The notes under the pieces are model-generated. The model worked only from the letters and a program-made list of their open reading frames with translations. It was not told the origin of the DNA and made no database searches. A stretch of 56,619 bases of DNA from an uncultured Bacteroidales bacterium (GTDB lineage Bacteria; Bacteroidota; Bacteroidia; Bacteroidales; UBA932), in contig CALUPB010000019.1 of the NCBI GenBank assembly GCA_944322585.1, forward strand, positions 1 to 56,619, read 5' to 3'. The position numbers and the translations under genes were made by a program. Position 1 is the stretch's first letter; every line of letters starts with the position of its first letter. Shown here piece after piece: positions 22,269 through 39,776 of this stretch.

Positions 22269-23480
22269 TTACACCAGGCCGAGGAGCTTGCTGCGTGAGA
22301 GCATGCAGGCCCCGAGCGCCCCGCCCTTGGAACCGAGCTTGGAAAACTTGACAGTGGTGTCCTTGCTGACGATTATCAGGGAATATTTGTTGATGGCCCC
22401 CATGATAGGCAGCATCAGATAGTCCTTTGCCACAGTGAGCTTTCCTCCTATTACCACAAGTTCCGGATTGAAGATGTTTATCAGTCCCGCTATCGCCCGT
22501 CCGAGTTCCCGTCCGGTGACTTCCATCGCTTCTATGGCAAGCACATCCTCGTCCTCCAGCGCATCGATAATCTCGTCGAGGGAAATGTCCTCGCCTTTCT
22601 CGAATTTCGGTCTGAGCACCGAAGCCCGTCCTTCTTTCAGCCTGTCGGTGAAAAATCTGTGGACTGCAGAGCCTGAAGCCACTGTCTCAAGGCACCCTAT
22701 TTTCCCGCACCGGCACATTATGTCGTTGTCCTTGAACGGGAAATGCCCTATTTCCCCTGAAAATCCGGACTTCCCGTAGGAGAGTTTCCCGTCCAGGATC
22801 ATTCCCATCCCGAGTCCCCAGCTCAGATTGATGAACAGCATGTTCTTCTCCCCGTTGCCCACTCCGCAGATATATTCCCCGTATGCCATGGCCCTGGAGT
22901 CATTGTCGATGAAGACGGCGTTGCCGAGCATGTCCTCAAGGGTATCGGAAAGAGGCCGCTCCTCTCCAAGGAAATAGGAGAAGCTGAAGCCGGTCTCGCA
23001 GTTCACGCGGCCGGTGAGATTGATGCCGTAGGCGAGTATCCTGTCCTTGTCGATACCCAGGCTTTCAATATGGGAAAGAAGCATTCCGCACATTTCCCTG
23101 AAAGACTCTTCCGTACTTTCAAGAACAAACGGCATATCTTCCTGATAGTCGATGAGATTACCCTTGAAATCAGTCACAGCCACACTTATGTGATGACTTC
23201 CTATGTCTGCTCCGACGAGATATCCGGCAGAGGAGCACAGCCCGTAGATGTTCGGCTTGCGTCCTCCCGAAGTCCCCTGTTTGCCGAGATCTTCTATGAA
23301 GCCGTCTTCTATCAGCTCGCTCAGCAGTTTTGTTATGGTAGGGATGCTCGTATTCAGTTCCTTGCTCAGGTCGGCAATGCTGAAGTCTCCGTCAGTGATG
23401 CACAGACCGAGTATCTTCTTTTTCAGGGAACCGTTCTTGCCGTCGTCTATTCTGTCTAAAAAATTTTTCATAAGGGCCAT
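22269..23480 (-). CDS. ROK-family transcriptional regulator
   Basis: This protein of about 400 residues has an N-terminal winged helix-turn-helix (KKKILGLCITDGDFSIADLS, NTSIPTITKLLSELIEDGFI). A ROK sugar-kinase-like domain follows, starting YLVGADIGSHHISVAVTDFK. The zinc motif CRCGKIGCLETVASG is intact. Translation may begin at the internal ATG 23471 (MKNFLDR). By family precedent (NagC, XylR) it is a repressor released by a sugar or amino sugar. It lies next to the transporter and the SusCD operon and is the only regulator in the locus, so it probably controls the divergent region at 26130-26340. It appears to have its own promoter at 23613-23620. Confidence 0.9.
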   Translation of the reverse strand: MALMKNFLDRIDDGKNGSLKKKILGLCITDGDFSIADLSKELNTSIPTITKLLSELIEDGFIEDLGKQGTSGGRKPNIYGLCSSAGYLVGADIGSHHISVAVTDFKGNLIDYQEDMPFVLESTEESFREMCGMLLSHIESLGIDKDRILAYGINLTGRVNCETGFSFSYFLGEERPLSDTLEDMLGNAVFIDNDSRAMAYGEYICGVGNGEKNMLFINLSWGLGMGMILDGKLSYGKSGFSGEIGHFPFKDNDIMCRCGKIGCLETVASGSAVHRFFTDRLKEGRASVLRPKFEKGEDISLDEIIDALEDEDVLAIEAMEVTGRELGRAIAGLINIFNPELVVIGGKLTVAKDYLMLPIMGAINKYSLIIVSKDTTVKFSKLGSKGGALGACMLSRSKLLGLV

Positions 23481-23484
23481 ATCG

Positions 23485-23530
23485 GAAACTGTCCCGTAAC
23501 TGTTTTGAGAAACTGCTCGGCAGCTTCTGA
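23485..23530. repeat. Degenerate copy of the AAGCTGTTT repeat
   Basis: On the minus strand CAGAAGCTGCCGAGCAGTTTC is followed by two more ACAGTT-type units. It lies directly upstream of the ROK gene, in its leader. Confidence 0.4.
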
Positions 23531-23612
23531 ATTTTATCCGTATAAAATTGCACAGTCCCGTATTCTTTTACGGAAAAGATACAGTTTGTTAATTAATTTT
23601 AATAATTGAGGA

Positions 23613-23620
23613 CAAAGTTA
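23613..23620 (-). promoter_or_regulatory. -7 box TAACTTTG for ROK gene
   Basis: A minus-strand match to TAnnTTTG in the gap between the MFS stop and the ROK start. It would let the regulator be transcribed separately from the transporter operon, with a leader of about 130 nt. Confidence 0.5.
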
Positions 23621-23622
23621 TA

Positions 23623-25011
23623 CTATTTTTTCCAATATGCCTCTATTTCTTCCAACGTTTTTCCTGTGGTTTCAGGGACGGCTTTCCACATTATCAGTAT
23701 ATACGGTATGCACATGACGGCAAACAGGAAGAATGTCCCTGCAGGAGTCAGGTTCTCCAAGAGCCATGGCGTCAGCTGGCCTATCAGGTATGTCCCCACC
23801 CAAAGGGCAAGGCCTGCAATCGACATAGCCCGTCCGCGTACGCTGTTGGGATACATTTCTGAAAGCAGGACGAATACTACGGCGCTTATGGATATCGCGC
23901 AGCAGAATACATAGAACAGGAAAAACGCCAGAAGGAATCCGTTCCCGAGTCCCCATGCGTCTCCCCACAGGAAATATGCCCCTATCATCAGAAGGGAGAC
24001 TATCATTCCGGAAACTCCCCAGTATATCAGCTGCTTGCGTCCGACCCGGTCGATAATGAACACGGCTATGACCGTAGTGAGCATGTTGACGGCTCCTACG
24101 AGCACCTGCGAGAACATGGAGTCGCTTCCCGAAAGGCCGGCCTTGCTGAAAATTTCAGGGCCGTAGTACAGGACTGCGTTCACGCCCATGAACTGGCCGA
24201 GTATAGCTATGGCGGAGCCGATGATTACCGCCTTCAGAATACCGGGCTGCAGGAGGGCCTTCCATTCGGACTTAGTCTCTCCGGCGATCGAGGCCCTTGT
24301 CTCTTCAAGCTGGGCAACGGCGTGCGTCATGTCTCCGTATATGCGGGTGAGCGTCCTGATTGCCTTGTCTCCTTTCCCTTTGACTATGAGCCATCTCGGG
24401 CTTTCAGGGATCAGGAAGATGACGATGAAGTACAGCAGGGCGGGGACTGTCATGGAGCCGAGCATTCCGCGCCACATTTCCTCCTTCATCAGGTGGTTCC
24501 AGACTCCGGACCCGTATTCGGAGGATTCTGCGGCATCCTGTATCCAGAAGTTCACAAGATATGCCGCGAGGAAGCCTATGGTGATGGCAAGCTGGTAGAG
24601 GGATACCATCGTACCGCGTCGGTCGGCCGGAGAGACTTCGGAAATATAGATAGGGGATACGATGGACACTATTCCGATGCCGACCCCTCCGATTATCCTG
24701 AAACATACCAGCTGGATGAAGTCGGCGCTGATGGCGCAGCATACAGCCGACATACAGAACAGCGTGGCGGCTATCAGCATCGTTTTCTTCCTTCCGATGC
24801 TGTCACTCAACGCTCCGGCAAAAAGGACGCCGATGATGGAGCCGATGAGGGCGCAGCCGACGTACCATCCCTGCTGGAGGGTATCCAGTCCGAACTGAGC
24901 AGTGACATTGCTTATCGTGCCGGAGATGACAGCAGTGTCATATCCGAAAAGAATTCCTCCGATGGCGGCCACTACCGCCATGAAAAGGACGTATCCTCTG
25001 TTTGTTTTCAT
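23623..25011 (-). CDS. Sugar-porter MFS permease
   Basis: This 462-residue, 12-helix inner-membrane symporter carries the sugar-porter signatures: GGILFGYDTAVISGTI in helix 1, GALSDSIGRKKTM between helices 2 and 3, PESPRWLIVKGK after helix 6 and PETTGKTLEEIEAYW at the C-terminus. It resembles the XylE/GLUT group, so it should take up a monosaccharide or short oligosaccharide with protons. It overlaps the DUF4434 gene by four bases and would carry the product of the outer-membrane and periplasmic steps into the cytoplasm. Confidence 0.92.
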   Translation of the reverse strand: MKTNRGYVLFMAVVAAIGGILFGYDTAVISGTISNVTAQFGLDTLQQGWYVGCALIGSIIGVLFAGALSDSIGRKKTMLIAATLFCMSAVCCAISADFIQLVCFRIIGGVGIGIVSIVSPIYISEVSPADRRGTMVSLYQLAITIGFLAAYLVNFWIQDAAESSEYGSGVWNHLMKEEMWRGMLGSMTVPALLYFIVIFLIPESPRWLIVKGKGDKAIRTLTRIYGDMTHAVAQLEETRASIAGETKSEWKALLQPGILKAVIIGSAIAILGQFMGVNAVLYYGPEIFSKAGLSGSDSMFSQVLVGAVNMLTTVIAVFIIDRVGRKQLIYWGVSGMIVSLLMIGAYFLWGDAWGLGNGFLLAFFLFYVFCCAISISAVVFVLLSEMYPNSVRGRAMSIAGLALWVGTYLIGQLTPWLLENLTPAGTFFLFAVMCIPYILIMWKAVPETTGKTLEEIEAYWKK

Positions 25012-26126
25012 ATCTCGAAGTATTCCCTATATCTGTTGTAGAGGTTTCCTGCCGCCCCGTAGACGGACTGAGGGCTCATGAAATGCGAGAACTCGAAAGT
25101 GATGGCCTTGTCGTATCCGCATCTTTTGGCCGCCTCCAGTTTCATTCTGAGCTTGTCGAACTTGATAGGCAGGAAACGTATCGGCATGTCCCTGTCGAAT
25201 GTCTCGGCATTTGTCCAGCATTTCATCCCGTATTTGTCTGCCAGTTTCTTGTTCACTGTAAAGAAGGCGTCAAGTTCGTCATAGTCTATGTGGCCGTCCT
25301 GGAAGGCACATGCATCCACGACGTCATGTATTCCGTCGAAAATCTCGTTCCATTCCCTTTCATGGTCGGTCACGCTGACTCCGGCAGCGCCTGCCACGGC
25401 CTTCTTCCCGTCTATCCACGGTGATATGAATGTCGGCAGTCCTCCGGAAACTTCCTTGCACTGTTTGCCCATGGCATGGAACGCGTCTATCGCCCCCTTG
25501 GTCTTGCGGCTTATCTCCCCGCTGATATACCAGCCTCCGAAGCTGTCGTATCTGCTGCCGTACATCTCCCATACCTCGTCGATTACATATTTGTTGTCCT
25601 CTATCTCATAGGACAGGTCTCCGGTGTCCCAGTACCGTCCGGAGTCGTACAGTCCGAAATAGAATTTCATCCCGTATTTTCGGGCCAGGCGGCAGAACAT
25701 GTCGATCAGATCCACAGAAGGCATGTAGCAGCCCTTTTTCAGAAGATACGGGGACGGATAGGTGATGAATTTCCTGTAGCCGCTCCTGATGTTGATGACA
25801 GTGTCGATACCGATAGCTTTCATATGCGCGAAATCGGCGTCCCATTCCTTTTCGCCCCAGTTCTGGTGCGGGATGTCATGGGATATTTCATCCAGGAAAG
25901 TTCCGGTTATGCGCAGTCCGTTCGCCTTCGGCACTATCAGCGTGCTTTCCTTTGCGGTCCTGCCCGCAGAACCGGATCCGGCTGCTCCAGCCGTACTTCC
26001 GGCTCCGCCTGCCCCGGCGTTATTCACTGCTTCCGTACCGGTCATGGCCCGTCCTATCTGCGGAATCGCAACTGCCGATGCCGCTGCTATCGCAGCTTTC
26101 CTTATGAATGTTCTCCTGTCCGTCAT
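25008..26126 (-). CDS. DUF4434-like TIM-barrel protein with Tat-like signal
   Basis: This 372-residue protein starts MTDRRTFIRKAAIAAASAVA, a twin-arginine-like signal (RRTFIRK). A Gly/Ala-rich linker covers about residues 33-60. The rest reads like a TIM-barrel glycosidase-related domain of the DUF4434 type: ITGTFLDEISHDIPHQNWGE, ADFAHMKAIGIDTVINIRSG, MKFYFGLYDSGRYWDTGDLS, FGGWYISGEISRKTKGAI, DACAFQDGHIDYDELDAFFT, KCWTNAETFDRDMP and KAITFEFSHFMSP. Acidic residues at strand ends (SGEIS, NAETF) could be catalytic, but no activity is established. It is first in the leftward operon, overlapping the MFS gene by four bases. Confidence 0.8.
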   Translation of the reverse strand: MTDRRTFIRKAAIAAASAVAIPQIGRAMTGTEAVNNAGAGGAGSTAGAAGSGSAGRTAKESTLIVPKANGLRITGTFLDEISHDIPHQNWGEKEWDADFAHMKAIGIDTVINIRSGYRKFITYPSPYLLKKGCYMPSVDLIDMFCRLARKYGMKFYFGLYDSGRYWDTGDLSYEIEDNKYVIDEVWEMYGSRYDSFGGWYISGEISRKTKGAIDAFHAMGKQCKEVSGGLPTFISPWIDGKKAVAGAAGVSVTDHEREWNEIFDGIHDVVDACAFQDGHIDYDELDAFFTVNKKLADKYGMKCWTNAETFDRDMPIRFLPIKFDKLRMKLEAAKRCGYDKAITFEFSHFMSPQSVYGAAGNLYNRYREYFEI

Positions 26127-26162
26127 GGTTATGGATTTTTAAAATAATTTAACAACTTTGTG

Positions 26163-26170
26163 CAAATATA
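26163..26170 (-). promoter_or_regulatory. -7 box TATATTTG for DUF4434-MFS operon
   Basis: A perfect minus-strand box lies 36 bp before the DUF4434 start, in the divergent intergenic region of the glycan locus. Confidence 0.6.
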
Positions 26171-26254
26171 GAATTTTTTAATATGTTTTCAGTCTTATTT
26201 GAAATTTTTATTCAATTTTTCTATGAATATGGTCGGATGTTTTATAAAAAGTTC

Positions 26255-26262
26255 TATATTTG
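26255..26262 (+). promoter_or_regulatory. -7 box TATATTTG for susCD operon
   Basis: A perfect plus-strand box gives a leader of about 75-80 nt before susC. It is flanked by an imperfect inverted repeat (ATGGTCGGATGT at 26229-26240 and ATGTCCGATTGACCAT at 26284-26299), a possible operator. The AT-rich stretch 26195-26212 (TTATTTGAAATTTTTATT) lies between the two promoters. Confidence 0.55.
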
Positions 26263-26342
26263 CAACGACAATGCATGCCAGTCATGTCCGATTGACCATA
26301 TTTAATGTATATATACTATTAACCAATTAACTCTAAAGTCCA

Positions 26343-29300
26343 ATGAGAAAATCTTATCTGATTTCTTTATGCATTTTCTCGTTGACCGTATTTGAACTGG
26401 GGGGGGATCTTAATCCTCTGAATGCAACTGAAGTACGGTCAACTCAAGACGAGAGGACTGTAACCGGTGTCATCCGGGACACTGAAGGAGAGCCGGTCAT
26501 AGGTGCTTCAGTAATGCAGACAGGAACTCTGAACGGAACAGTGACCGATCTTGACGGAAACTTTACTCTTACTGTTCCTTCCGATGCCGAACTGACCGTA
26601 TCTTGTATAGGGTACGAGGAACATGTTTTCAGGCTTGACAGCAGAGACCGTTATGAGATTGTTCTGAATCCGTCTTCCGAATTCCTGGATGAAGTGGTTG
26701 TCGTGGGTATGGACAACCGTCAGACCAGACGGTCGATTACTGGAGCGATTTCCACCATCGACACGAAGGATCTTGTCCAGAGTCCGGTTGCGAACATTTC
26801 GAATGCCCTGGCCGGAAAACTGCCCGGACTTATGACTGTACAGTCGTCAGGTGAACCGGGAGCCGATGCTGCGACTCTTTATATAAGAGGGGTGGGAACT
26901 TACGGAACCAGTACGCCGCTTGTCGTCATCGACGGCCTTCCCCGGGACAAGGCGGATTTCGACATGCTGGACGCCAATGAAATCGAGTCTATCACTATCC
27001 TGAAGGATGCATCCTCTTCTTCGCTGTACGGAATACAGGGAGCCAACGGTGTGGTTGTCGTGACGACAAGGCGCGGCGGCAGCAATACCAAACCGAGGAT
27101 TTCCTTTACGATACAGCAGGCGTTGCAGCAGCCGATACGCCTGCCTCAGCTCATGAGTTCCTATCAGCAGGCCCTCTACAACAAGGTGCTGGATGAAAAT
27201 GACGGACAGCCTGTGACCTATACGGACGAAGTGCTCGAAATGATAAGGACAGGAGCCGATCCTTACCTTTATCCCAACACCAACTGGTTCGATGTGGCCC
27301 TGAAGAAATATTCGTGGCAGCAGCAGTACAACGTGAACATCTCCGGAAGTGCAGGCAAGGACAACAGAGTCACGTATTTTGTCTCGGGAAGCTACATCAA
27401 CCAGGGGACTCTCCTGAACCATAACGATGTGTTCGAGTCCAATTTCGGCGTGAATTCCAAGTATGACCGTTATAATTTCCGGTCCAATATCGATATCAAG
27501 GCTACCAGAATGCTCGACATAAGGTTCGACCTTGCAGGACGGTTCGAGACCCAGATCGGGCCGAGTACGAGCTTTTCCAATGTCTTCAACATCATTACGA
27601 CCCGTTCTCCGAGTTCGCAGTCGGTATTCAACCCGGACGGCACTCTTGCGGCCGGAAGCAATCTGGAAATCCCGTTCCAGGACAACCCGTACGGAGTCAT
27701 TACCGAGAGCGGCTACTACAAGAACATCACCAATGTCATGTACGGTACCATTTCCGCCCGTCATGCACTGGACTTCATCACCAAGGGACTCAGCGTACAG
27801 GCCTATTTCAGTTTCGAGAGTACTGCCAATCTCAACAGGACATGGAGCAGGACTTTCGAGCAGTACTGGTACAGGGGCATAGACAGCGATACGGGAGAGC
27901 CGATATATCAGGACTATTCCGCTGCCGGACAGTTAAATGCAAGTACATGGCGCAGTGTGGACCAGTATACGTATTATGATGTCCGTCTGAATTACGACAG
28001 GGCGTTCGGCGACCACAATGTCAGTGCACAGCTCCTTGCCAACAGGACACTGAAGAATCTGACAGGGTCGGAATACATGTATGCCTATCAGGGGATCAGT
28101 GCAAGGGCGACATACAATTATGCCGACAGGTATTTCCTCGAGGTGAATCTCGGGTATAACGGTTCAGAGAATTTTCCTCCGGGGCGCAGGTACGGACTGT
28201 TTCCGGCATTTTCTGCTGGCTGGGTCATAAGCGATGAACCTTGGCTCAATATGCCGGATGTGGTGAAGATATTGAAAATCAGGGGGTCGTATGGCGTCGT
28301 GGGTAATGACCAGATAGGAGGCTCCCGTTTCCTTTACCTTTCTGATTTCGGGACAGGCGGCGGATGGAAGGATATTTTCAATGACGGATACTATTTCGGT
28401 ACCACCAATGGCGGGTCGGTCTCTGCCGGAGGGTATAACGAGACCCAGGTGGGAAACATGTATGTGACATGGGAGCGCTCCAGAAAGACGAATGTCGGAT
28501 TCGATCTGTCCCTTTTCAGGAACAATGCGGTAAACCTTACTCTGGACTATTTCTATGAAATGAGGGATGACATACTTACCGAGGCAGGACGTGTCCCGGA
28601 CTATGTAGGTATCGCCAACGTCGCCCCGCGTAATTCAGGAAAGGTGATGAACCAGGGATTCGAAGGGGAACTGAACATAAACAAACAGTTCGGCAATGAC
28701 TTCGCCCTGTTTGCAAATGTGCAGTTCACCTATGCCAGGAACAAGGTTCTGGAGAATGACCAGCCTACGCCTGCCTATGCATACCAGGATCTGAGAGGAT
28801 ATGAGATAGGCTATGACCTCGGCTATCATGCGATAGGGTTTTTCCAGGATCAGGATGATATAGACACCAGTCCGAAACAGACGTTTGCGGAGAAAGTGAT
28901 TCCGGGAGATGTCAAGTACCAGGATTACAATAATGACGGTGTCATCGACCCGTCGGACCGTATCCCGATAAAATGCTATTCCGTGCCGACGTTTACCGGA
29001 GGCTTTTCGCTTGGCTTCAACTGGAAGGGATTCGATTTCAGTGTGATGTTCAGCGGCTCGTTGGGCGGGACGGCGCGTCTGTATTCCTACGATGCGAGCA
29101 TCATCAATCTTGACAGATGGACTACGGACAACAGAAGTGCCCGTCTTCCTGTGGCACATACTACTGCCAACAACACTGTAAGTTCGGACTGGAACCTGAT
29201 GAAGACGGACTATCTGAAACTGAGAAATGTGGAGATAGGATATACCGTACCGACATCTTTCCTTAAGAAAATACGCGTCGCCAGTGCGAGGTTTTATCTC

Positions 29301-29429
29301 AGCGCGCAGAACGTTGCGGTCTGGGACAGGATGTGGCTGAAGGACCGCGATCCTGAATCGGCAGGAACATCAGCGCTGCCCTATCCTCTGCAGAGACTTG
29401 TCAACATAGGACTCCGCTTCGAATTGTAA
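26343..29429 (+). CDS. SusC/RagA-family TonB-dependent transporter
   Basis: This 1028-residue outer-membrane protein imports oligosaccharides in complex with SusD. In order: signal peptide (about 1-28), carboxypeptidase-regulatory-like domain (VTGVIRDTEGEPVIGASVMQ to about residue 108), plug domain (DEVVVVGMDNRQTRRSITGA, YIRGVGTYGTSTPLVVIDGL, ITILKDASSSSLYGIQGANG), then a 22-strand barrel ending LQRLVNIGLRFEL. There is no N-terminal regulatory extension. An odd feature is a run of eight G (26399-26406) in the signal-peptide codons GAA CTG GGG GGG GAT, where slippage would knock out translation. It heads the rightward operon; susD follows after 24 bp. Confidence 0.95.
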   Translation: MRKSYLISLCIFSLTVFELGGDLNPLNATEVRSTQDERTVTGVIRDTEGEPVIGASVMQTGTLNGTVTDLDGNFTLTVPSDAELTVSCIGYEEHVFRLDSRDRYEIVLNPSSEFLDEVVVVGMDNRQTRRSITGAISTIDTKDLVQSPVANISNALAGKLPGLMTVQSSGEPGADAATLYIRGVGTYGTSTPLVVIDGLPRDKADFDMLDANEIESITILKDASSSSLYGIQGANGVVVVTTRRGGSNTKPRISFTIQQALQQPIRLPQLMSSYQQALYNKVLDENDGQPVTYTDEVLEMIRTGADPYLYPNTNWFDVALKKYSWQQQYNVNISGSAGKDNRVTYFVSGSYINQGTLLNHNDVFESNFGVNSKYDRYNFRSNIDIKATRMLDIRFDLAGRFETQIGPSTSFSNVFNIITTRSPSSQSVFNPDGTLAAGSNLEIPFQDNPYGVITESGYYKNITNVMYGTISARHALDFITKGLSVQAYFSFESTANLNRTWSRTFEQYWYRGIDSDTGEPIYQDYSAAGQLNASTWRSVDQYTYYDVRLNYDRAFGDHNVSAQLLANRTLKNLTGSEYMYAYQGISARATYNYADRYFLEVNLGYNGSENFPPGRRYGLFPAFSAGWVISDEPWLNMPDVVKILKIRGSYGVVGNDQIGGSRFLYLSDFGTGGGWKDIFNDGYYFGTTNGGSVSAGGYNETQVGNMYVTWERSRKTNVGFDLSLFRNNAVNLTLDYFYEMRDDILTEAGRVPDYVGIANVAPRNSGKVMNQGFEGELNINKQFGNDFALFANVQFTYARNKVLENDQPTPAYAYQDLRGYEIGYDLGYHAIGFFQDQDDIDTSPKQTFAEKVIPGDVKYQDYNNDGVIDPSDRIPIKCYSVPTFTGGFSLGFNWKGFDFSVMFSGSLGGTARLYSYDASIINLDRWTTDNRSARLPVAHTTANNTVSSDWNLMKTDYLKLRNVEIGYTVPTSFLKKIRVASARFYLSAQNVAVWDRMWLKDRDPESAGTSALPYPLQRLVNIGLRFEL

Positions 29430-29453
29430 CAGGACTTAAAAGACATAGACATA

Positions 29454-31145: not shown

Positions 31146-31205
31146 TGCGGCCGGCTTCCGGGATACCTTACAATAGATCAAATAACAACGTTTAAATTCT
31201 GTATT

Positions 31206-32639
31206 ATGAAACAGCTATTTTTATTTGCCGGAGCCATGGCTCTTGCAGGAGGGATGTTGTTCACGTCATGCAAGGACAACACCGAAGAACAGCCGGGAAC
31301 GGTTCCTGAAGTAAGTATTTCCGCTGACGAAACCTTCGCTTCCGACTATACGGCCACGCTTACTCTGACCCTTTCGTCGGCATCCTCATCCGATGTCGTC
31401 GTGAAACTCGCCGATGCGGACGTGGAGTCCGGACAGTCGGAAGTGCCTGCCGTCTACAGCAAGTCGGTAACTATCGGGGCAGGCAAGACAAGCGCTACCG
31501 TGAAAGTCTCTGCCGATGTGCTCGGCCTGACGGAGGGCACGTACCAGTCTGCCATTATGATCGCGTCCGCCGAAGGGGCTGATGTGGCTGAAAATTCCGT
31601 TGTATATATCGGACTCGACTATGTGGAACTTCCGGCCGTTAACCTGTATGCCGACGACCATTTTACTCATACCCGCACTGCCGAACTGCGTCTCAGGCTC
31701 GAAGAGGCCGCTGAAGCGAATGTTACGGTGACTCTCGAGGATGATGCTTCAAGTACGGTTTCGGTAGAATATGAAAAGACTGTGTCCATACCTGCCGGTG
31801 AGACCGAAGCTGCGGTACCGGTGACGGTGGTGATACCGGACGACATGGCGCAGGGAAACTATAAGGCTGTCATAAATATCGCTTCCGTGGAAAATGCGGT
31901 CAGCGGGAATTCACGCTCGGTGACCATCAGCCTTTCCTATCCGTTCGAGGTGGAGATGACGATGGACGGTCTGTTCGATGACTGGGATACTCCGGAAGTG
32001 ACATCCTATCCTCTGCCGGAAGGAGATGTGAAATATCCTGTACTGAGAACACTCAAGCTCGCGGCCAATTCAAAGGATGTATACATGTACTTCGAACTGC
32101 AGGCTCCTGAAGATTTCGGCTATACTGCATTCGATGCCAACACGATGCCTTTCAATGTCATTATCGACCATGACGGGAATGCTGCTACCGGCGCATATAT
32201 CGGAACCATAGACAACGCCACGGCCGGGCAGCCATTCGATCCTATGGGACTTACCTATTATATCGAGGGTGCTCTCCGTGACGGTTCCGGTGATCCGTTC
32301 TCGGTATTCTATTCGATGACCGTATACCGGGCCGACTGTGTCAAGGACGGCGGATTTTTCTGGTCATCAGACGTGACTTTGACTTCTCTTGTAGGTAAAT
32401 ATGACGGAGAGACCATTTACGGAGTCGGTTCGTATGAAGACGGCATAGGCAGGATAGAGGTCAAATTCGACAGGAATTTCTTCGGTATGACAGGCACGGC
32501 CGCAAGGTTTGCCATCAAGGTAATGGACAGCGCCAGGAACTGGGACGCAATCGGACTTCTGCCTCAGGGCAATACGGAGAACGGTGAGTTCAAGCCTGTC
32601 GATATGGCTGTAATCAATCTGCCTGCATATGTGGAATAG
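31206..32639 (+). CDS. Surface lipoprotein with two beta-sandwich repeats and C-terminal binding domain
   Basis: This 477-residue lipoprotein has lipobox MLFTSC with Cys22. Two tandem Calx-beta-like repeats follow: about 35-140 (ISADETFASDYTATLTLTLS ... VTIGAGKTSATVKV) and about 143-245 (LYADDHFTHTRTAELRLRLE ... VSIPAGETEAAVPV). The C-terminal half (about 250-477; MDGLFDDWDTPEVTSYPLPE, then YMYFELQAPEDF and VIIDHDGNAATG) resembles a DOMON/CBM9-like carbohydrate-binding sandwich. It holds the SusE/SusF position in the operon and probably presents glycan at the cell surface. No catalytic motif is seen. Its stop overlaps the next start by 11 bases. Confidence 0.75.
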   Translation: MKQLFLFAGAMALAGGMLFTSCKDNTEEQPGTVPEVSISADETFASDYTATLTLTLSSASSSDVVVKLADADVESGQSEVPAVYSKSVTIGAGKTSATVKVSADVLGLTEGTYQSAIMIASAEGADVAENSVVYIGLDYVELPAVNLYADDHFTHTRTAELRLRLEEAAEANVTVTLEDDASSTVSVEYEKTVSIPAGETEAAVPVTVVIPDDMAQGNYKAVINIASVENAVSGNSRSVTISLSYPFEVEMTMDGLFDDWDTPEVTSYPLPEGDVKYPVLRTLKLAANSKDVYMYFELQAPEDFGYTAFDANTMPFNVIIDHDGNAATGAYIGTIDNATAGQPFDPMGLTYYIEGALRDGSGDPFSVFYSMTVYRADCVKDGGFFWSSDVTLTSLVGKYDGETIYGVGSYEDGIGRIEVKFDRNFFGMTGTAARFAIKVMDSARNWDAIGLLPQGNTENGEFKPVDMAVINLPAYVE

Positions 32640-33669
32640 GTTTCTTATAATCGCTTCGGTACTTCTGCTCGCTTCATGCGGGGCGGGCAGGAGTTCCGGT
32701 AATGATGCCCCGTTCTTTGAAATGCGCGGTATCGTGCTTGCGTGGGATGATGTATGCAATCCTGAAACAGTGGACTGGCTTTCCCTGATGAAGGAAAACG
32801 GTCTCAACACCATAAGTGTGTTCGGGAAAGACTATGCAAGTCCGGAGTATCTGGTTTTCAGGCAGAAATGCATTGACAGCGGTTTCGAGTTCGAATATGA
32901 AGAGCATGCGATGTCATGGCTGCTTCCGAGGGAGCTTTTCAACACCCATCCGGAATATTTCCGTATGGACGAGAACGGACAGAGACAGCCTGACGGTAAC
33001 GGATGTCCGTCTAACGAGGAAGGACTGAAGGTGATAATGGGCAATGTACGTCAGTTCGCCATGGAGCACACTCCGACGAATCACAGATACTATACATGGC
33101 TCTATGACGGGGGAGATATCTGCCACTGCGAAAAGTGCCGGGAATACAATGCCGCCGACCAGGGTCTGATATTCGAGAACCATATAATCAAGGCTCTCAG
33201 GGAGTATGATCCGGAGGCGATGCTGGCGCATCTTGCATACCACAATACGACGCCTGCGCCTTCTGTCGTCAGACCGGAAGAGGGTATCTTTCTGGAGTTC
33301 GCCCCTTTCTACAGGCGCTGGGACAAGCCTCTTTCAGACAGGTCCGCAATCAGGGACGGGGAGACATGGACGCATGGCGACTATCTGGATATGCTCGAAG
33401 CCAATCTGAAAGTATTCCCGGCGGAAACGGCCCAGGTGCTCGAATACTGGCTCGATGTCTCGCAGCGCAGCGGCTGGAAGAAACCGCAAGTCAGGCTGGA
33501 ATGGTACAATGATGTCTATCTCGATGACCTGAAGACATATGCCGGTTATGGCATCAGGAATATAACCTGCTACGGAGCCTGGATAGACAAGTATTATGTG
33601 GATACATACGGCGATCTGACTCCTGTGGAGGATTACGGGCAGGGACTGTTGAACTATAGACAAGAATAG
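32629..33669 (+). CDS. DUF4838-type lipoprotein 1
   Basis: This 346-residue lipoprotein has lipobox LLLASC with Cys17. It reads like a TIM-barrel of the DUF4838 class: RGIVLAWDDVCNPETVDWLS, GLNTISVFGKDYASPEYLVF, EEHAMSWLLPRELFNTHPEY, YYTWLYDGGDICHCEKCREY, AMLAHLAYHNT, IFLEFAPFYRRWDKPL and TAQVLEYWLDVSQRS. The CHCxKC cluster and the conserved Glu/Asp at predicted strand ends suggest a metal-assisted or glycosidase-like site; this is inference. The gene starts inside the end of the previous one (TATGTGGAATAG) and is followed after three bases by a paralogue. Confidence 0.7.
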   Translation: MWNRFLIIASVLLLASCGAGRSSGNDAPFFEMRGIVLAWDDVCNPETVDWLSLMKENGLNTISVFGKDYASPEYLVFRQKCIDSGFEFEYEEHAMSWLLPRELFNTHPEYFRMDENGQRQPDGNGCPSNEEGLKVIMGNVRQFAMEHTPTNHRYYTWLYDGGDICHCEKCREYNAADQGLIFENHIIKALREYDPEAMLAHLAYHNTTPAPSVVRPEEGIFLEFAPFYRRWDKPLSDRSAIRDGETWTHGDYLDMLEANLKVFPAETAQVLEYWLDVSQRSGWKKPQVRLEWYNDVYLDDLKTYAGYGIRNITCYGAWIDKYYVDTYGDLTPVEDYGQGLLNYRQE

Positions 33670-33672
33670 AGT

Positions 33673-34806
33673 ATGAAACGGATTTTTCTGACACTCCTGA
33701 TGGCAGCCGGATGCCTTTCATTCACATTGTGTTCCTGTTCCGAGCCGGCAGTGCAGGCAGATAGCGGGGAAGAGAACGTCGGACAGGATGGCGGGGATGG
33801 AGATGACGGGACAGGTGACACGGATGACCCGGAGCCGGCAGAGCCGGAAAGATGGTTCATCCAGAGAGGTCTTGTGGCATCGTGGAGCGATGTGATGAAT
33901 GCCGATGCCATAGACTATGTGGAGATAGCAAAAGCCAACGGTATCAATACATTCAGTATTTTCGGAGCAGAGCGTACATGGCCCATCTGGCAGAAGTTCG
34001 CAGACAGGTGTGCCGAGGCGGGAATCGATCTGGAATATGAGGAGCACATGATGTCCAGACTGCTCCCGAGAGACCTTTTCAGCACCCATCCCGAGTATTT
34101 CCGGATGAACGAGAAAGGACAACGGGTCAATGACGCCAACGGGTGTCCGTCTTCGGAGGGCGCCCTGGCGGAAATCAGGAAGAATGCAAAGACTCTGGCG
34201 GTGGATTATGCTCCGACCAACGACAAGTATTATTTCTGGCTGGACGACGGCGGCGGAGTGTGTCATTGCGACAAATGCAAGGGACTCAACTATGCCGATC
34301 AGGCACTTCTGTTCGAAAATGCCGTCATAGAGGCGATCAAGGAGGTCAATCCTGAAGCCATGCTGGCGCATCTGTGCTATGCCGCTTCCATAGATCCTCC
34401 GCAGACAGTGAAGCCGCATGAAGACATTTTCCTGGAATTCGCCCCGTTCTACCGGAGCATGTCCGATCCCATATCTTCTGAATGGGCGGTCGGAAGGTAC
34501 AGCATGAAGCACAGCACATATCTCAGGGCGCTCAAGGAGAATTTAGAGGTTTTCCCTCCGGAGACGGCCCAGGTGCTGGAATACTGGATGGACGATTCCC
34601 TGTTCAGTGAGTGGGATCCTACGGATCTGGTGGAAGTGCCGTGGGACAACGGGATGTTCCTTGACGATATAGATACCTATGCTTCGTACGGTATACGCAA
34701 TATAATGTGCTACTGTGTGTATGTCGGACCGTCGTATGTCAACAAGTTCGGATTTCCGGCATTCCTCGAAGAATATGGCCAGGGGCTTTTGAACTATGAA
34801 AGGTAG
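33673..34806 (+). CDS. DUF4838-type lipoprotein 2 (paralogue)
   Basis: This 377-residue lipoprotein (cysteine at 20 or 22) has an acidic Asp/Gly-rich linker (about 30-58) and then the same domain as the gene before it. Shared landmarks are the EEH.MS.LLPR.LF.THPEYFRM block, the HCDKCKGLNYADQALLFEN block with the CHCxKC cluster, EAMLAHL, DIFLEFAPFYRSM, TAQVLEYWMD and YASYGIRNI. Identity by eye is around half, so the duplication is not recent. The linker suggests the domain is held away from the outer membrane. The next gene overlaps its last 11 bases. Confidence 0.7.
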   Translation: MKRIFLTLLMAAGCLSFTLCSCSEPAVQADSGEENVGQDGGDGDDGTGDTDDPEPAEPERWFIQRGLVASWSDVMNADAIDYVEIAKANGINTFSIFGAERTWPIWQKFADRCAEAGIDLEYEEHMMSRLLPRDLFSTHPEYFRMNEKGQRVNDANGCPSSEGALAEIRKNAKTLAVDYAPTNDKYYFWLDDGGGVCHCDKCKGLNYADQALLFENAVIEAIKEVNPEAMLAHLCYAASIDPPQTVKPHEDIFLEFAPFYRSMSDPISSEWAVGRYSMKHSTYLRALKENLEVFPPETAQVLEYWMDDSLFSEWDPTDLVEVPWDNGMFLDDIDTYASYGIRNIMCYCVYVGPSYVNKFGFPAFLEEYGQGLLNYER

Positions 34807-35434
34807 TGGTGTGTTTTTCGTTGTGTGCATGCTGTCGGTTGCGGCGGCATGCCGCAATGAAGCGGGACATGACGGGTTCCTGATAGGCAGGGCAGGGGAG
34901 ATCGACGGCCTTCATGCCCCATGGGACGGACTCGATGACAATACCTCGTTCCGGTGTTTTGCGGATTCGTCCTTTTTTTATTTCCTGTATGAGGTCGAGG
35001 ACAGTACGATGACTTTTTCCGATGATTTCCCCGAAGAACGGGTAGTGGACACGGAAGACAGGGTGGAGATTTTCTTCAGTCCGGGGCCTGATATGGAAAG
35101 ATATTACTGTGCGGAGATAGACCCTCTCGGAAGAGTGATGGATTATTCGTGCGAGTATTATGCCCGGATGGATTACGGATGGGATTTCACTACCCTGTCG
35201 GCGGCCGGGTGGCTGACGTCCGGAGGATATGCAGTAGCCGGCAGGATTTCTCTCGACGAACTTAAGTCGCTGGGAATTGATCCGCATGCAGGCTTCCATA
35301 TGGGAATATTCAGGGCCGATTTCCATCCGGACGGTACGGTCAACTGGTACTCCCATGTAGAGACGGATGATACGGCTCCGGACTTCCACCGGCCCGAGAT
35401 GCTTTTTTATACTGAAACCGGAACACTTGATTAA
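34796..35434 (+). CDS. CBM9-like carbohydrate-binding lipoprotein
   Basis: This 212-residue lipoprotein has lipobox VAAAC with Cys19. The body matches the family-9-like sugar-binding sandwich often fused to xylanases or standing alone in Bacteroidetes: EIDGLHAPWDGLDDNTSFRC, FFYFLYEVEDSTM, DTEDRVEIFFSPGPDM, YCAEIDPLGRVMDYSCEYY, YAVAGRISLDELKSLGI and GIFRADFHPDG. There is no catalytic domain. It starts within the end of the DUF4838 paralogue (TATGAAAGGTAG). Its stop codon TAA opens a copy of the AAGAAGCTGTTTTGAAA repeat. Confidence 0.8.
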   Translation: MKGSGVFFVVCMLSVAAACRNEAGHDGFLIGRAGEIDGLHAPWDGLDDNTSFRCFADSSFFYFLYEVEDSTMTFSDDFPEERVVDTEDRVEIFFSPGPDMERYYCAEIDPLGRVMDYSCEYYARMDYGWDFTTLSAAGWLTSGGYAVAGRISLDELKSLGIDPHAGFHMGIFRADFHPDGTVNWYSHVETDDTAPDFHRPEMLFYTETGTLD

Positions 35435-35470
35435 GAAGCTGTTTTGAAATTTTTCCAAAAGACAATTGAC
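35432..35470. repeat. Interspersed palindromic repeat, copy F
   Basis: TAAGAAGCTGTTTTGAAA begins at the stop codon of the CBM9-like gene, exactly as the copy at 4378-4404 begins at the tldD stop. The 3' half is degenerate. It lies inside the operon between the CBM9-like and DUF5107 genes. Confidence 0.5.
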
Positions 35471-35472
35471 AG

Positions 35473-38388
35473 ATGATCAGAAATTTGGCGGCATTGATTC
35501 TTCTGGCGCTCTTCCCGGTTGTCGGCACGGCCCAGAAAATAACGGTAAAGGATACTTTGTGCAGGACATATCCGTTTTCCGATCCGGATCCTGTCCCCCG
35601 GACTTCCGGAGTCTATCCGTATCACCGTTACGAGACATTTGCCTTCGAGCCGGAAGACGTGACATGGAAAATGGTGGTGCTCGAGAACGATTATCTCCGG
35701 GTGAAGATTTTTCCGGAGATCGGAGGCAAGATATGGTCGGTATACGACAAGACATCGGGCAATGAGATGTTTTATGACAATGATGTCGTGAAGTTCAGGG
35801 AAATAGCCTTGAGGGGACCATGGACAAGCGGTGGAATAGAATTCAATTACGGAGTCATCGGACACGCCCCTTCATGTGCGCATCCTGTCGACTATAAAAC
35901 AGAGTACAAGGAGGACGGAAGCGTCAGCTGCTACATAGGAGTGATGGAGCTTCTTACCCGTACGCGATGGATGGTCGAGATCAATCTCCCTGCGGACGCG
36001 GTTTGGGTACGGACCAGGTCTTTCTGGCATAATTCTTCCGGAACATTCCAGCCGTATTACACATGGGCGAATTCGGCTACGGAAGTTTCCCCCGAGATGA
36101 AGCTGCTGTATCCGGCGCAATATTCGATAGGTCATGACGGCAGGATTTCCGGATATCCTGTGGATGAGTCGGGACGGGATCTTTCCGAGTATGCCATGCA
36201 GGATTTCGGCCTTGACAAGTCATTGCATCCCGGAGGTTCCCACAAGAACTGGTTCGGAGTCTACTGGCCGGAAAAGGATTTCGGGATGCTGCATTATGCC
36301 CTGCGGGACGAGAAGATCGGCAGGAAATATTTCAGCTGGACTCAGTCCGACCAGGGAGAGATATGGGTGGAGCTTCTGACCGATACGCGGCCGCAGTATG
36401 TGGAGCTGCAGAGCGGACGGCTCTTTAACCAGAATCTGTGGGAGAGCGTCGGCACACCGTACAAGCAGACTCTGTTTACACCCTATGGCACGGATGAGTG
36501 GAATGAATATTGGCTGCCTTTCGCCGGTATAGGCGATGATGTGGATATGCTGACTCTCGATGCCGCTGTCAACGTGGATGATAGAGGAGCCGGAATCAAT
36601 GTCGGGATTTATCCCCTGAAGGCTCTTTCGGGCAGGCTTGAACTCAGGGATTCTTCCGGACATGTCCTTGCCGGAAGGGAAATATCCCTTGCTCCGGCAC
36701 ATCCTGCCGTCGAGAAGTTCGATACGGACGGTATGGACGGCCTCGCTGAAATCATGCTCGGAGGAAAGAGACTGTGGTCAAAAGACCGTCAGGATATCGG
36801 CAGACCGGAGACTGTAGACAAGGATTTCAGTCTGGATTCCGCCTATGGACTTGCCGTATACGGGAAATATCTCATCGGTATGAGAAAATATGCCGACGCG
36901 GAATGGCGTATAGACAAGGCTATCGGGCTGGACCCTTCGCTTGTCCCGGCCCTTAATCTGAAAGCACTGCTGTGCCTGCGGAAAACGGATTATGCAATGG
37001 CTTGCGAATATGCAGACAGAGTCCTGTCAATCGATCAGTATGATCCTCAGGCCAATTTCATCAGCGGCAAGGCATGTGCCGCTCTCGGCCGGAAATATGA
37101 TGCCATGGACAGGTTCGAAGTGGCAGCGATAACATCCTCACTCAGAAGTGCCGCCTGTACCGAGCTTGCCCGTATCCATTTCATGGAAGGGGATTATGAT
37201 CTGGCGCGTCAGTATGCACTCAAGAGTCTGACAGGAAACGGACATAATCTCTCTGCATATTATCTGCTTTATCAGATTGAACCGGAAGAAGGCATATTGG
37301 ATGCGGTCAGGGGACTCGACCCTCTTTGCCATTTCCCGGAAATGGAAATGATGCTTGCCGGAACGATAGGCAGGGAAGACCTTGCGGAGTCTGTCAGGGA
37401 AGAGCTCGGCTGGCAGAATTATATGGAGTTCGCCGCATTCTACAGCAGTCTCGGGCTTAAGGACAAGGCAGAACGCCTTCTGGCAGCCTGCCCGGAGCAG
37501 AATGCGCTCGTTTCGCTTTGGCGGGCATGGCTTGAAGGGGATACGTCGATGATATCCGATGCCGAAGCCGGATCCATCGAATTGGTATTCCCGTTCAGGG
37601 AGGAGTCCGTTGCTCCGCTGGAATGGGCGGTGGAAAATGGCGGAGGATGGAGGAGCCGTTATCTGCTGGCTATGCTGCAGGATTTTCTCGGACATAGGGA
37701 CAGGGCAATCGGACTCATGGAAGACAGCAGTCCGGATTATGCTCCGTATTATTGCTACAGAAGCAATCTGACAGGAAATATGGACGATATGCTGAAGGCC
37801 CACGCGCTCGATCCTGAAGAATGGAGGTATATCCAGTATCTCGGACAGAGGTATAACGGGGAAGGACGCTACTCTGAAACAATCGGCCTGCTGAAAAAAT
37901 ATTATGCGCGGCACAGAGACAATTTCCACATCGGCGATACATACGTCAAGGCTCTGATAGCGACAGGTAAGTATCATGACGCGGACAAGGTTATGGCCGG
38001 CATGAGAGTGTTGCCGTTCGAAGGTCAGGCGGGAACACATGTAATGTACCGGGATATTAAATTGCATCTTGCGGCGGAAAGCATAGACAAAGGCAAATAT
38101 GCGGAAGCCCTTGAGAGAATATCCGAAGCCCGGGAATATCCATGGAGACTGGGGGTCGGCAAACCATATGACGAACTCATTGACACTACATTGGAAGACT
38201 GGCTCTCCGCTATTGTGTACCATAGGACCGGCAACACGGAAAAGGCATCCGAACATCTGGCCGAAGTCAGGAACGAGGCGTTGCTGGAAGCCTATCCGGG
38301 GATGGTGACCGAAACCGGAGGACGTTATGCGGATGTAATGTCCATGTTGGGAAATCTGGATGCGTCATCTGACAAGAAACTGTTTTAG
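35473..38388 (+). CDS. DUF5107 protein with C-terminal TPR repeats
   Basis: This 971-residue secreted protein has signal peptide MIRNLAALILLALFPVVGTA. Residues about 30-385 look like the DUF5107 mutarotase-like beta-sandwich: VVLENDYLRVKIFPEIGGKI, GGIEFNYGVIGHAPSCAHPV, RSFWHNSSGTFQPYYTWANS, GGSHKNWFGVYWPEKDFGML. The remainder, from about 460 on, is helical tetratricopeptide-like (KYLIGMRKYADAEWRIDKAI, NLKALLCLRKTDYAMACEYA, LAMLQDFLGHRDRAIGLMED). No activity is established for DUF5107; the fold is one used by enzymes that act on sugars. It is the largest periplasmic candidate enzyme of the locus. Its final codons AAG AAA CTG TTT TAG also resemble the repeat. Confidence 0.8.
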   Translation: MIRNLAALILLALFPVVGTAQKITVKDTLCRTYPFSDPDPVPRTSGVYPYHRYETFAFEPEDVTWKMVVLENDYLRVKIFPEIGGKIWSVYDKTSGNEMFYDNDVVKFREIALRGPWTSGGIEFNYGVIGHAPSCAHPVDYKTEYKEDGSVSCYIGVMELLTRTRWMVEINLPADAVWVRTRSFWHNSSGTFQPYYTWANSATEVSPEMKLLYPAQYSIGHDGRISGYPVDESGRDLSEYAMQDFGLDKSLHPGGSHKNWFGVYWPEKDFGMLHYALRDEKIGRKYFSWTQSDQGEIWVELLTDTRPQYVELQSGRLFNQNLWESVGTPYKQTLFTPYGTDEWNEYWLPFAGIGDDVDMLTLDAAVNVDDRGAGINVGIYPLKALSGRLELRDSSGHVLAGREISLAPAHPAVEKFDTDGMDGLAEIMLGGKRLWSKDRQDIGRPETVDKDFSLDSAYGLAVYGKYLIGMRKYADAEWRIDKAIGLDPSLVPALNLKALLCLRKTDYAMACEYADRVLSIDQYDPQANFISGKACAALGRKYDAMDRFEVAAITSSLRSAACTELARIHFMEGDYDLARQYALKSLTGNGHNLSAYYLLYQIEPEEGILDAVRGLDPLCHFPEMEMMLAGTIGREDLAESVREELGWQNYMEFAAFYSSLGLKDKAERLLAACPEQNALVSLWRAWLEGDTSMISDAEAGSIELVFPFREESVAPLEWAVENGGGWRSRYLLAMLQDFLGHRDRAIGLMEDSSPDYAPYYCYRSNLTGNMDDMLKAHALDPEEWRYIQYLGQRYNGEGRYSETIGLLKKYYARHRDNFHIGDTYVKALIATGKYHDADKVMAGMRVLPFEGQAGTHVMYRDIKLHLAAESIDKGKYAEALERISEAREYPWRLGVGKPYDELIDTTLEDWLSAIVYHRTGNTEKASEHLAEVRNEALLEAYPGMVTETGGRYADVMSMLGNLDASSDKKLF

Positions 38389-38405
38389 CTTTTAAATTCA
38401 CATAT

Positions 38406-39584
38406 ATGGATACTGTTTCATTTGCCGGTATGGCAGAACAATACCGGCTGGAGCTGATGGAGAACTGTCTTCCTTTCTGGCTGGAGCATTCGTTGGACAG
38501 GGAATACGGCGGCTATTTCAGCTGTCTGGACAGGGACGGGAGCGTATATGACACGGACAAGTTCATCTGGCTCCAGGGGCGAGAGGTATGGCTTTTCGCA
38601 ATGCTGTACAACAATGTCGAGAAACGGGAGGAGTGGCTTGATGCGTCTCTTCTCGGGGCTGAGTTCCTGAAGAAATACGGGCACGACGGGAACTATGACT
38701 TCTATTTCTCTTTGACACGAGAAGGGAAGCCGCTGATACAGCCGTACAACATCTTCTCGAACACATTCGCGTGCATGGGCTTCGCGCAGCTTGCGAAGGC
38801 GACGGGGAAGGAAGAATATGCAGAAATAGCCCGGAAGACCTTCGCTCGGATATTGGCGAGGCGGGACAATCCGAAGGGGAAATGGGAGAAGAGCTGTCCG
38901 GGAACTCGGCCGCTGAAAGGCTTTTCGCTTCCGATGATCATCTGTAACATGGCGTTGGAGATAGAGGAAATCATAGAAGACAAAAGTCTTTTGGACAGGA
39001 CGATAGAAGAGTGTCTGCACGAAGTGTTGGGCGTGTTCTACAAGGACGAGGTGGGGATGATGGTGGAGAACGTTTCCGGGACGGACGGGAGCCTTGTAGA
39101 CTGCTACGAGGGCCGGCTTGTCAATCCGGGACACAACCTGGAGGCGCTGTGGTTTCTGATGAGCCTCGGAGAGCGGCTTAAGGACAATGGTTTGATAGAG
39201 AGGTGCGTGAAGATATCGCACAATGTTATAGAATACGGCTGGGACAAGGAGTACGGAGGTATCTATTATTTCATGGACCGACTGGGTCATCCTCAGCAGC
39301 AGCTGGAGTGGGACCAGAAACTGTGGTGGGTTCACATCGAGTCGGCGATAGCGATGCTGAAGGGTTATCTGCTGACTGGAGACATGACGAGTCTGGATTG
39401 GTTCGAGAAACTGCATGAGTACATGTGGGACCATTTCAAGGACAAGGATTATCCGGAGTGGTACGGCTACCTTAACCGCCGAGGTGAAGTGCTGTTGCCG
39501 TTGAAGGGCGGTAAATGGAAGGGCTGCTTCCATGTCCCGAGAGGCCTCTACCAGATATGGCAGATCGCGGAATGCTGTCGATAA
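38406..39584 (+). CDS. N-acylglucosamine 2-epimerase family enzyme
   Basis: This 392-residue cytoplasmic (alpha/alpha)6-barrel enzyme has the AGE/RnBP signature EGRLVNPGHNLEALWFLM (His243) and the C-terminal PEWYGYLNRRGE ... GGKWKGCFHVPRGLYQIWQ. These fit N-acylglucosamine 2-epimerase (GlcNAc to ManNAc) better than cellobiose 2-epimerase, whose members lack the NPGH and KGCFHVPR forms. No signal peptide is present, so it acts after uptake. As last gene of the rightward operon it suggests the imported product is an amino sugar that is interconverted at C2. Confidence 0.85.
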   Translation: MDTVSFAGMAEQYRLELMENCLPFWLEHSLDREYGGYFSCLDRDGSVYDTDKFIWLQGREVWLFAMLYNNVEKREEWLDASLLGAEFLKKYGHDGNYDFYFSLTREGKPLIQPYNIFSNTFACMGFAQLAKATGKEEYAEIARKTFARILARRDNPKGKWEKSCPGTRPLKGFSLPMIICNMALEIEEIIEDKSLLDRTIEECLHEVLGVFYKDEVGMMVENVSGTDGSLVDCYEGRLVNPGHNLEALWFLMSLGERLKDNGLIERCVKISHNVIEYGWDKEYGGIYYFMDRLGHPQQQLEWDQKLWWVHIESAIAMLKGYLLTGDMTSLDWFEKLHEYMWDHFKDKDYPEWYGYLNRRGEVLLPLKGGKWKGCFHVPRGLYQIWQIAECCR

Positions 39585-39660: not shown

Positions 39661-39776
39661 GGTGCAAAAACGGAAGATGATGTTCCGGATAAGACAATTT
39701 TTCTTATCTTCGCGAAATATGCGGAAGTTGTGCCGCCTGTTGCGAGTGATGAACATTAACCAAACCGTTGTCAGCC

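Follow-up and report, generated by a model that had tools for sequence, protein, structure and literature searches.

A Bacteroidales polysaccharide utilization locus without named glycosidase genes: DUF4838 and DUF4434 proteins as candidate cleaving enzymes

Which protein cleaves the glycan in a locus that has the parts to bind and import one and carries no gene named for a glycosidase? The question arises at positions 22269 to 39584 of the window, the whole 56,619-nucleotide stretch analyzed here (contig CALUPB010000019.1, assembly GCA_944322585.1, from an uncultured Bacteroidales bacterium). Eleven genes in two divergent operons make up a polysaccharide utilization locus (PUL), recognized by adjacent susC and susD homologues next to genes with putative roles in glycan processing. 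None of the 11 matched a Pfam model named as a glycoside hydrolase (GH) or polysaccharide lyase (PL). A preliminary description of the sequence had concluded that no GH or PL signature is present. This is true by Pfam names but not by family: DUF4838 (PF16126) is annotated as GH163 in one table row of PMC9870897, and the depositors of a DUF4434 structure titled it a putative fucosidase. In its strong form, that the locus encodes no glycosidase whatever, the claim is not right.

Our answer, to which we give about as much credence as doubt, is that the locus is a PUL for an N-acetylhexosamine (HexNAc) glycan in which DUF4838 proteins cut at the surface and DUF4434 is an exo-enzyme of the periplasm. 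We infer bond cleavage, the roles of individual residues, the site of each step and the substrate from what was observed: gene content, signal motifs, predicted folds, conserved residues and synteny. The glycan would be bound by SusD, the lipoprotein encoded from position 31206 and a CBM9-like lipoprotein, and cut at the cell surface by two DUF4838 lipoproteins, of which the b copy is the likelier catalyst, with D192 as a putative catalytic residue. SusC would import the fragments. Exported in folded form by the twin-arginine translocation (Tat) pathway, DUF4434 would be a periplasmic exo-glycosidase of the clan GH-A type, in which E204 serves as acid/base and E308 as nucleophile, and would free a monosaccharide. 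A major facilitator superfamily (MFS) permease would take up this sugar, and the epimerase would interconvert N-acetylmannosamine (ManNAc) and N-acetylglucosamine (GlcNAc).

Gene content and operon structure

The features of the locus are as follows.

22269..23480, minus strand: ROK-family regulator with N-terminal winged helix-turn-helix (HTH) (PF00480, E 2e-52; HTH_24, E 6e-6)
23623..25011, minus strand: sugar-porter MFS permease, inner membrane (PF00083, E 2e-112; TIGR00879, 364 bits, cut-off 237.8)
25008..26126, minus strand: DUF4434 protein, predicted TIM barrel, Tat-like signal, BT_0435 orthologue by sequence (PF14488, E 2e-85)
26127..26342, no strand: divergent promoter region (TATATTTG at 26255, plus, and 26170, minus)
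26343..29429, plus strand: SusC-like TonB-dependent transporter (PF07715, PF13715)
29454..31145, plus strand: SusD-like lipoprotein (PF07980, E 4e-55; lipobox AASC)
31206..32639, plus strand: lipoprotein, probable surface glycan-binding protein (lipobox FTSC; PF15418, 27.7 bits, cut-off 27; weak PF08522)
32629..33669, plus strand: DUF4838 paralogue a, short, GH163-related lipoprotein (PF16126, 69.6 bits)
33673..34806, plus strand: DUF4838 paralogue b, short, GH163-related lipoprotein (PF16126, 56.4 bits)
34796..35434, plus strand: CBM9-like lipoprotein (PF06452, 29.3 bits, cut-off 23.4, E 1e-6)
35473..38388, plus strand: DUF5107 domain and tetratricopeptide repeats (TPR), probably exported (PF17128, E 3e-102; hydrophobic N terminus without lipobox)
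38406..39584, plus strand: N-acyl-D-glucosamine 2-epimerase (AGE), no signal seen (PF07221, E 3e-72; NF052547, 658 bits)

Gene order, strands and domain names were verified with Pfam and the list of open reading frames (ORFs). They agree with the two divergent operons described previously, whose listed genes were all correct; that inventory had overlooked the CBM9-like gene. The minus-strand operon comprises DUF4434, MFS and HTH-ROK genes, and the plus-strand operon runs from SusC to the epimerase. We base the operon structure on the short plus-strand spacings (-11 to +60 bases), the 4-base overlap of the MFS and DUF4434 genes (ROK lies 142 bases further) and the presence, in a script scan, of one TATATTTG box per strand in the 216 bases between the two operons. 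We take this box to be the Bacteroidales -7 motif. The SusD protein is the best of 51 SusD matches in the host genome (2.87 Mb, 93.5% complete).

DUF4838 proteins as short relatives of GH163

Both DUF4838 copies exceed the PF16126 cut-off (26.6 bits) and thereby match the GH163 family profile, over about half of its length. A review (PMC10154615) describes one Bacteroides thetaiotaomicron GH163 enzyme that was found at the cell surface and acts on GlcNAc-beta-1,2-Man in complex N-glycans. As lipoproteins, the window copies could likewise be located at the surface. Judged by sequence, they are short, remote relatives of GH163.

We aligned 50 DUF4838 sequences, 36 from the short clade and 14 canonical, numbering residues by paralogue b. 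All 50 share H125, R151, C158, D192, C197, C199, C202 and N216. At position 191, 27 of the 36 short-clade sequences have Asp and 11 of the 14 canonical ones have Asn; the window a copy has Tyr. E303 is Glu in 35 of 36 short-clade sequences and not conserved in canonical ones. The b copy is predicted to fold as a TIM barrel (predicted local distance difference test score [pLDDT], 91.5), in which D191-D192 directly follow beta4 and E303 closes beta7. Foldseek gave 84 matches at E 0.001 or better, led by GH20 lacto-N-biosidases and followed by GH42, GH84 and GH20 hexosaminidases; template modeling scores (TM-scores) to the query were at most 0.53 among the matches listed.

D192 and N/D191 are candidate catalytic residues on grounds of conservation. 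By analogy with GH84 and GH85, the Asp-Asp or Asn-Asp pair of DUF4838 would fit substrate-assisted hexosaminidase chemistry. Because the Asp-Asp pair and E303 occur in paralogue b and Tyr191 in paralogue a, b appears to be the better catalyst candidate; a may bind or act differently. Since DUF4838 already carries a GH163 label in CAZy, a cleaving DUF4838 protein is more likely to represent a diverged branch of the GH163 type than to form a family of its own. The short clade could extend the range of GH163 activities, of which the review PMC10154615 names one.

The canonical DUF4838 protein of locus L134, the one canonical protein scanned, combines GH67N-like, DUF4838 and discoidin domains. The window copies consist of the barrel only, with neither the GH67N-like nor the discoidin domain.

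A stretch resembling the CBM9-like lipoprotein is fused to DUF4838 in several relatives, as seen by tblastn and in ORFs (loci L167, L176, L169 and L173, and L195 to L206); it is N-terminal in some and C-terminal in others, and that of L167 and L169 is not called by Pfam at 1e-3. A likeness of the DUF4838 Cys motif to the GH42 zinc site was considered and rejected: the Bacteroidales GH42 sequence displayed in the alignment is without the cysteines, and the short-clade profile retrieved no GH42 in PDB.

DUF4434 as a candidate clan GH-A enzyme

On sequence comparison, the window DUF4434 protein is an orthologue of B. thetaiotaomicron BT_0435, whose structure, PDB 4h41, has been public since 2012 under the title "putative alpha-L-fucosidase" (E 6e-193; 86-87% identity in the Foldseek alignment). 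Our searches of the open-licence literature turned up no work on the function of DUF4434. One candidate source, PMC4032388, was set aside, as its passages concern DUF4038, a different family. To place the protein among its relatives, we used DUF4434 loci from other genomes: at least 595 stretches matched the pattern, 584 of them encode a relative, and the best-scoring 80 of the 584, which lean to near relatives, were kept. From these 80 loci, 76 relatives are 75-88% identical to the window protein.

Across 61 aligned family members, columns W95, Y200, E204, W304 and E308 are invariant. The predicted model (pLDDT 86.5) is a TIM barrel with beta4 at 196-200 and beta7 at 302-308; E204 follows beta4 and E308 closes beta7. 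In this model and these sequences, the Glu at beta4 and the Glu at beta7 reproduce the layout of clan GH-A. Beyond 4h41, Foldseek neighbors are Cwp19 and GH164, then galactanases, a GH10 xylanase, GH39 and others, at TM-scores of about 0.5; pyruvate carboxylase, a non-glycosidase barrel, is also among them. Profile-profile comparison by hhalign, whose probabilities are uncalibrated single-pair values, gave 96.8% against GH42 when all 61 sequences were used, 95.9% against GH29 with the similarity stopping before beta4, 61.5% against GHL10, 1.1% against GH84 and 0.2% against GH20. With only the 49 nearer sequences, the values were 86.1% for GH42, 12.1% for GH29 and 2.7% for GHL10. In the GH42 alignment, E204 falls on the glutamate of the NE pair, which we take to be the acid/base.

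We rejected alpha-L-fucosidase (GH29) as an identity for DUF4434. Pfam gives only DUF4434, and weak profile matches to PDB fucosidases (E 9e-4), like the GH29 profile similarity, stop short of beta4. GH29 enzymes have an Asp nucleophile at the end of beta4, and columns 198-205 contain no Asp in the 49 nearer sequences. The fucosidase label on 4h41 is therefore unsupported here.

A twin-arginine-like motif, RRx[FLI][ILVF], lies within the first 45 residues of 83 of 84 DUF4434 proteins of 330-400 amino acids, and Tat export is therefore likely. For a glycosidase with no known cofactor, such export would be unusual. In locus L069 (17635-19821), a calcineurin-like phosphoesterase is fused to DUF4434.

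The preliminary description had named DUF4434, the DUF4838 pair and DUF5107 as cleavage candidates with TIM-barrel or mutarotase-like looks. DUF4434 and DUF4838 bear this out as predicted TIM barrels with plausible catalytic acids. DUF5107 matches a TPR protein (PDB 5cd6, E 1e-24), and Pfam and PDB profile searches found no evidence of a glycosidase. A mutarotase-like helper role for DUF5107 is a guess. The further proposal that any cleaving DUF protein would define a new family fails for DUF4838, already labeled GH163, and survives for DUF4434. At least this one protein of the locus could found a glycosidase family, within GH-A, though not one specific to the locus, as DUF4434 is found in all 80 loci and as BT_0435.

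Our fuller proposal for DUF4434 is tentative, and we doubt it somewhat more than we trust it. DUF4434 would found a new clan GH-A family of Tat-exported periplasmic exo-enzymes releasing N-acetylhexosamine. Together with the permease, and often with epimerase and ROK, it would form a final-step cassette plugged into many SusC/SusD surface modules of Bacteroidales, in the window one built on short GH163-like cutters.

A DUF4434 cassette with interchangeable surface modules

A gene counted as a neighbor if tblastn (E 1e-10, 15% or more of the query covered) placed a match no further than 9 kb from DUF4434; the sequence extends 8 kb to either side in 53 of the 80 loci. MFS was found in 74 loci, SusC in 55, ROK in 46, epimerase in 44, SusD in 38, GHL10 in 29 and DUF5018 in 28. 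Rarer neighbors are an FAD oxidoreductase (16), a NAGPA-like protein (14) and a second SusD type (9). The MFS gene lies no more than 600 bases from DUF4434 in 70 of the 80 loci. Among swapped partners, the NAGPA-like proteins fit HexNAc glycans, and so does a cluster of four proteins, found in four loci, of which the one member scanned carries GH20 and CE2. DUF6259 occurs in a single DUF4434 locus.

The surface genes of the window recur in its genus. DUF4434 matches were found in 20 of 61 genomes, two of them weak, and all 20 are among the 37 genomes of the genus; a DUF4838 relative was found at 1e-10 in 39 of 200 genomes. DUF5107 occurs with DUF4838 in 6 of 20 genus regions (L187 to L192), some regions ending at contig ends. 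Homologues of the 31206 lipoprotein adjoin SusD in L187, L189, L191 and L193. L189 and L191 contain SusC, SusD, the lipoprotein, three DUF4838 copies and DUF5107; the DUF4434 profile had no match there at 1e-3, and four further ORFs scanned in these regions matched no GH model. In L187, DUF5107 and the epimerase flank two distant DUF4434 paralogues, and L192 has DUF4434, DUF4838 and DUF5107, plus a GH3 gene 1 kb further.

The varying partners around a constant DUF4434, and the module without DUF4434 in L189 and L191, suggest a combination: the locus looks like a terminal cassette (DUF4434 and MFS, often with ROK and epimerase) joined to a surface module (SusC/D, DUF4838, DUF5107). Among the DUF4434 loci nearest to that of the window, pairing with this particular module is rare. 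The locus is not a chance assembly, because at least 584 stretches encode a DUF4434 relative and other genomes of the genus also carry the DUF4838/DUF5107 module. The role of the recurring cassette is testable through the swap pattern and through BT_0435.

GH89 was tried as a general DUF4434 partner and rejected: 14 of 23 genomes have GH89, yet in 0 of the 80 loci does it lie within 9 kb (tblastn, four GH89 proteins). The recurring FAD-dependent oxidoreductase (PF12831) is also present in L114, L121, L123, L125, L127 and L129. Glutaminyl-tRNA synthetase (GlnRS) is encoded nearby in 9 of 20 genus regions, five of them with a close epimerase homologue, and we regard this as a second locus type in the genus.

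Evidence for an N-acetylhexosamine substrate

The epimerase scores 658 bits against NCBIfam NF052547 (cut-off 600), and its nearest structures are the AGEs 6f04 (E 8e-152) and 2gz6 (E 7e-151), with cellobiose epimerases at E 1e-18 or weaker. By these comparisons, it is a true AGE of the GlcNAc/ManNAc type, which makes a HexNAc sugar likely. The ROK regulator scores best against NCBIfam NagC, at 182 bits, far below the cut-off of 650, and ROK is weak evidence for GlcNAc. Of the earlier argument from epimerase and ROK to a GlcNAc- or ManNAc-containing substrate, the epimerase half thus stands and the ROK half contributes little.

In B. thetaiotaomicron, BT0438 is a GH89 alpha-N-acetylglucosaminidase, and the SusC protein BT_0439 is implicated in host-glycan use and was seen on galacto- and milk oligosaccharides. 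The operon BT0439-BT0443 is induced in vivo, by an unnamed inducer. The AGE-type epimerase, the BT0438 GH89 and the host-glycan link of BT_0439 together favor HexNAc, and the substrate is likely a HexNAc-containing glycan. Complex N-glycans may be one option, via GH163.

Evidence against the proposal and alternative explanations

Several findings weigh against DUF4838 surface cutters and a DUF4434 exo-enzyme acting on a HexNAc glycan. The DUF4838 a and b matches cover only positions 41-214 and 42-213 of the 325 in PF16126, the a copy has Tyr at 191, and b shares only 17-21% identity with the 14 canonical sequences. On hand-clipped barrels, the links of the short-clade profile were partial, at 86.7% to GH42 and 45.7% to GH20 (19.6% and 31.4% for the canonical profile), and this profile found no glycosidase in PDB. 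Glycosidase activity of DUF4434 is a prediction from its modeled fold and conserved residues. Asn usually precedes the acid/base Glu in clan GH-A; the residue before E204 is Gly in 38, Thr in 7 and Gln in 4 of the 49 nearer sequences, and Asn in 3 of 12 distant ones. By tblastn, DUF4838 a, DUF4838 b, the CBM9-like protein, DUF5107 and the 31206 lipoprotein each lie beside DUF4434 in 1 of the 80 loci, and the lack of GH89 around DUF4434 counts on the same side. Not all swapped partners are HexNAc linked, as L104 has a GH92 gene. Finally, nagA had no match at E 1e-3 in the genome, which may lack about 6% of its sequence, while 14 of 14 control genomes matched. The missing nagA makes a simple route through GlcNAc-6-P less likely; nagB was found.

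The best of the alternatives, though unlikely, is that DUF4434 alone is catalytic and that the DUF4838 and CBM9-like lipoproteins, having lost catalysis, bind glycan at the surface. The constancy of DUF4434 across 80 loci with varying surface genes, the lack of Asp191 in DUF4838 a and the fusions of DUF4838 to a CBM9-like stretch would all suit this explanation. It is opposed by the retention of D192, H125, R151 and four Cys in 50 of 50 DUF4838 sequences and by the DUF4838 modules of L189 and L191, which are without DUF4434.

Alternatively, the locus may scavenge, importing oligosaccharides cut by enzymes encoded elsewhere, with little or no cleavage of its own. Elsewhere in the genome there are two GH20 genes, one GH29 gene and two weak, partial GH42-model matches (the GH84 model had no match in the genome); the GH20 and GH29 genes and the lack of a Pfam GH name in the locus point this way. 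Three predicted TIM-barrel proteins with conserved acids (DUF4838 a by homology) argue for cleavage by the locus itself, and we consider scavenging decidedly unlikely.

A sialic acid-type locus, in which lyase-made ManNAc is epimerized to GlcNAc, is very improbable: the AGE-type epimerase, MFS permease and SusC/D would serve it, but no lyase or sialidase model matched in the locus, and the genome's two PF00701 (lyase superfamily) matches are on other contigs, one beside a SusD with its own MFS.

Hardly credible is a 3-keto-glycoside route with cleavage by the adjoining plus-strand PF06439 lipoprotein (20577-22175; 39.8 bits), for although 16 of 80 other loci have an FAD oxidoreductase in the vicinity of DUF4434, no oxidoreductase model matched in the window locus, and the 20577-22175 gene follows the GlnRS gene after 18 bases, runs opposite to the ROK operon and had no tblastn match at 1e-8 in 38 genus regions. 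Besides PF06439, this lipoprotein has a C-terminal stretch that matches NF006251 at 46 bits, below the cut-off of 212, and that we take to be PHP-like. Downstream of the epimerase, 39768-41324 (plus strand) encodes an AAA-ATPase-like and PD-(D/E)XK protein that is probably unrelated.

Comparison with known systems

With GH163, the window DUF4838 proteins share the PF16126 match, D192, H125, R151 and the four Cys; they differ in the beta6/beta7 region, where the short clade has E255 and E303. DUF4434 shares the TIM barrel and the Glu at beta4 and beta7 with clan GH-A (GH42, GH164, GH10 and others), but has no Pfam GH match and, in the 49 nearer sequences, no Asn before the acid/base Glu. The BT_0435 region of B. 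thetaiotaomicron (BT_0435 and BT0438 to BT0443, their nearness read from locus numbers only) likewise has the DUF4434 orthologue, that of structure 4h41; it has GH89 at BT0438, whereas the window instead has DUF4838, CBM9-like and DUF5107 genes. DUF4434 loci with GHL10, DUF5018 and NAGPA differ from the window in their SusC (27-28% identity in most) and in their hydrolase candidates, and share with it DUF4434, MFS, ROK and SusC/SusD.

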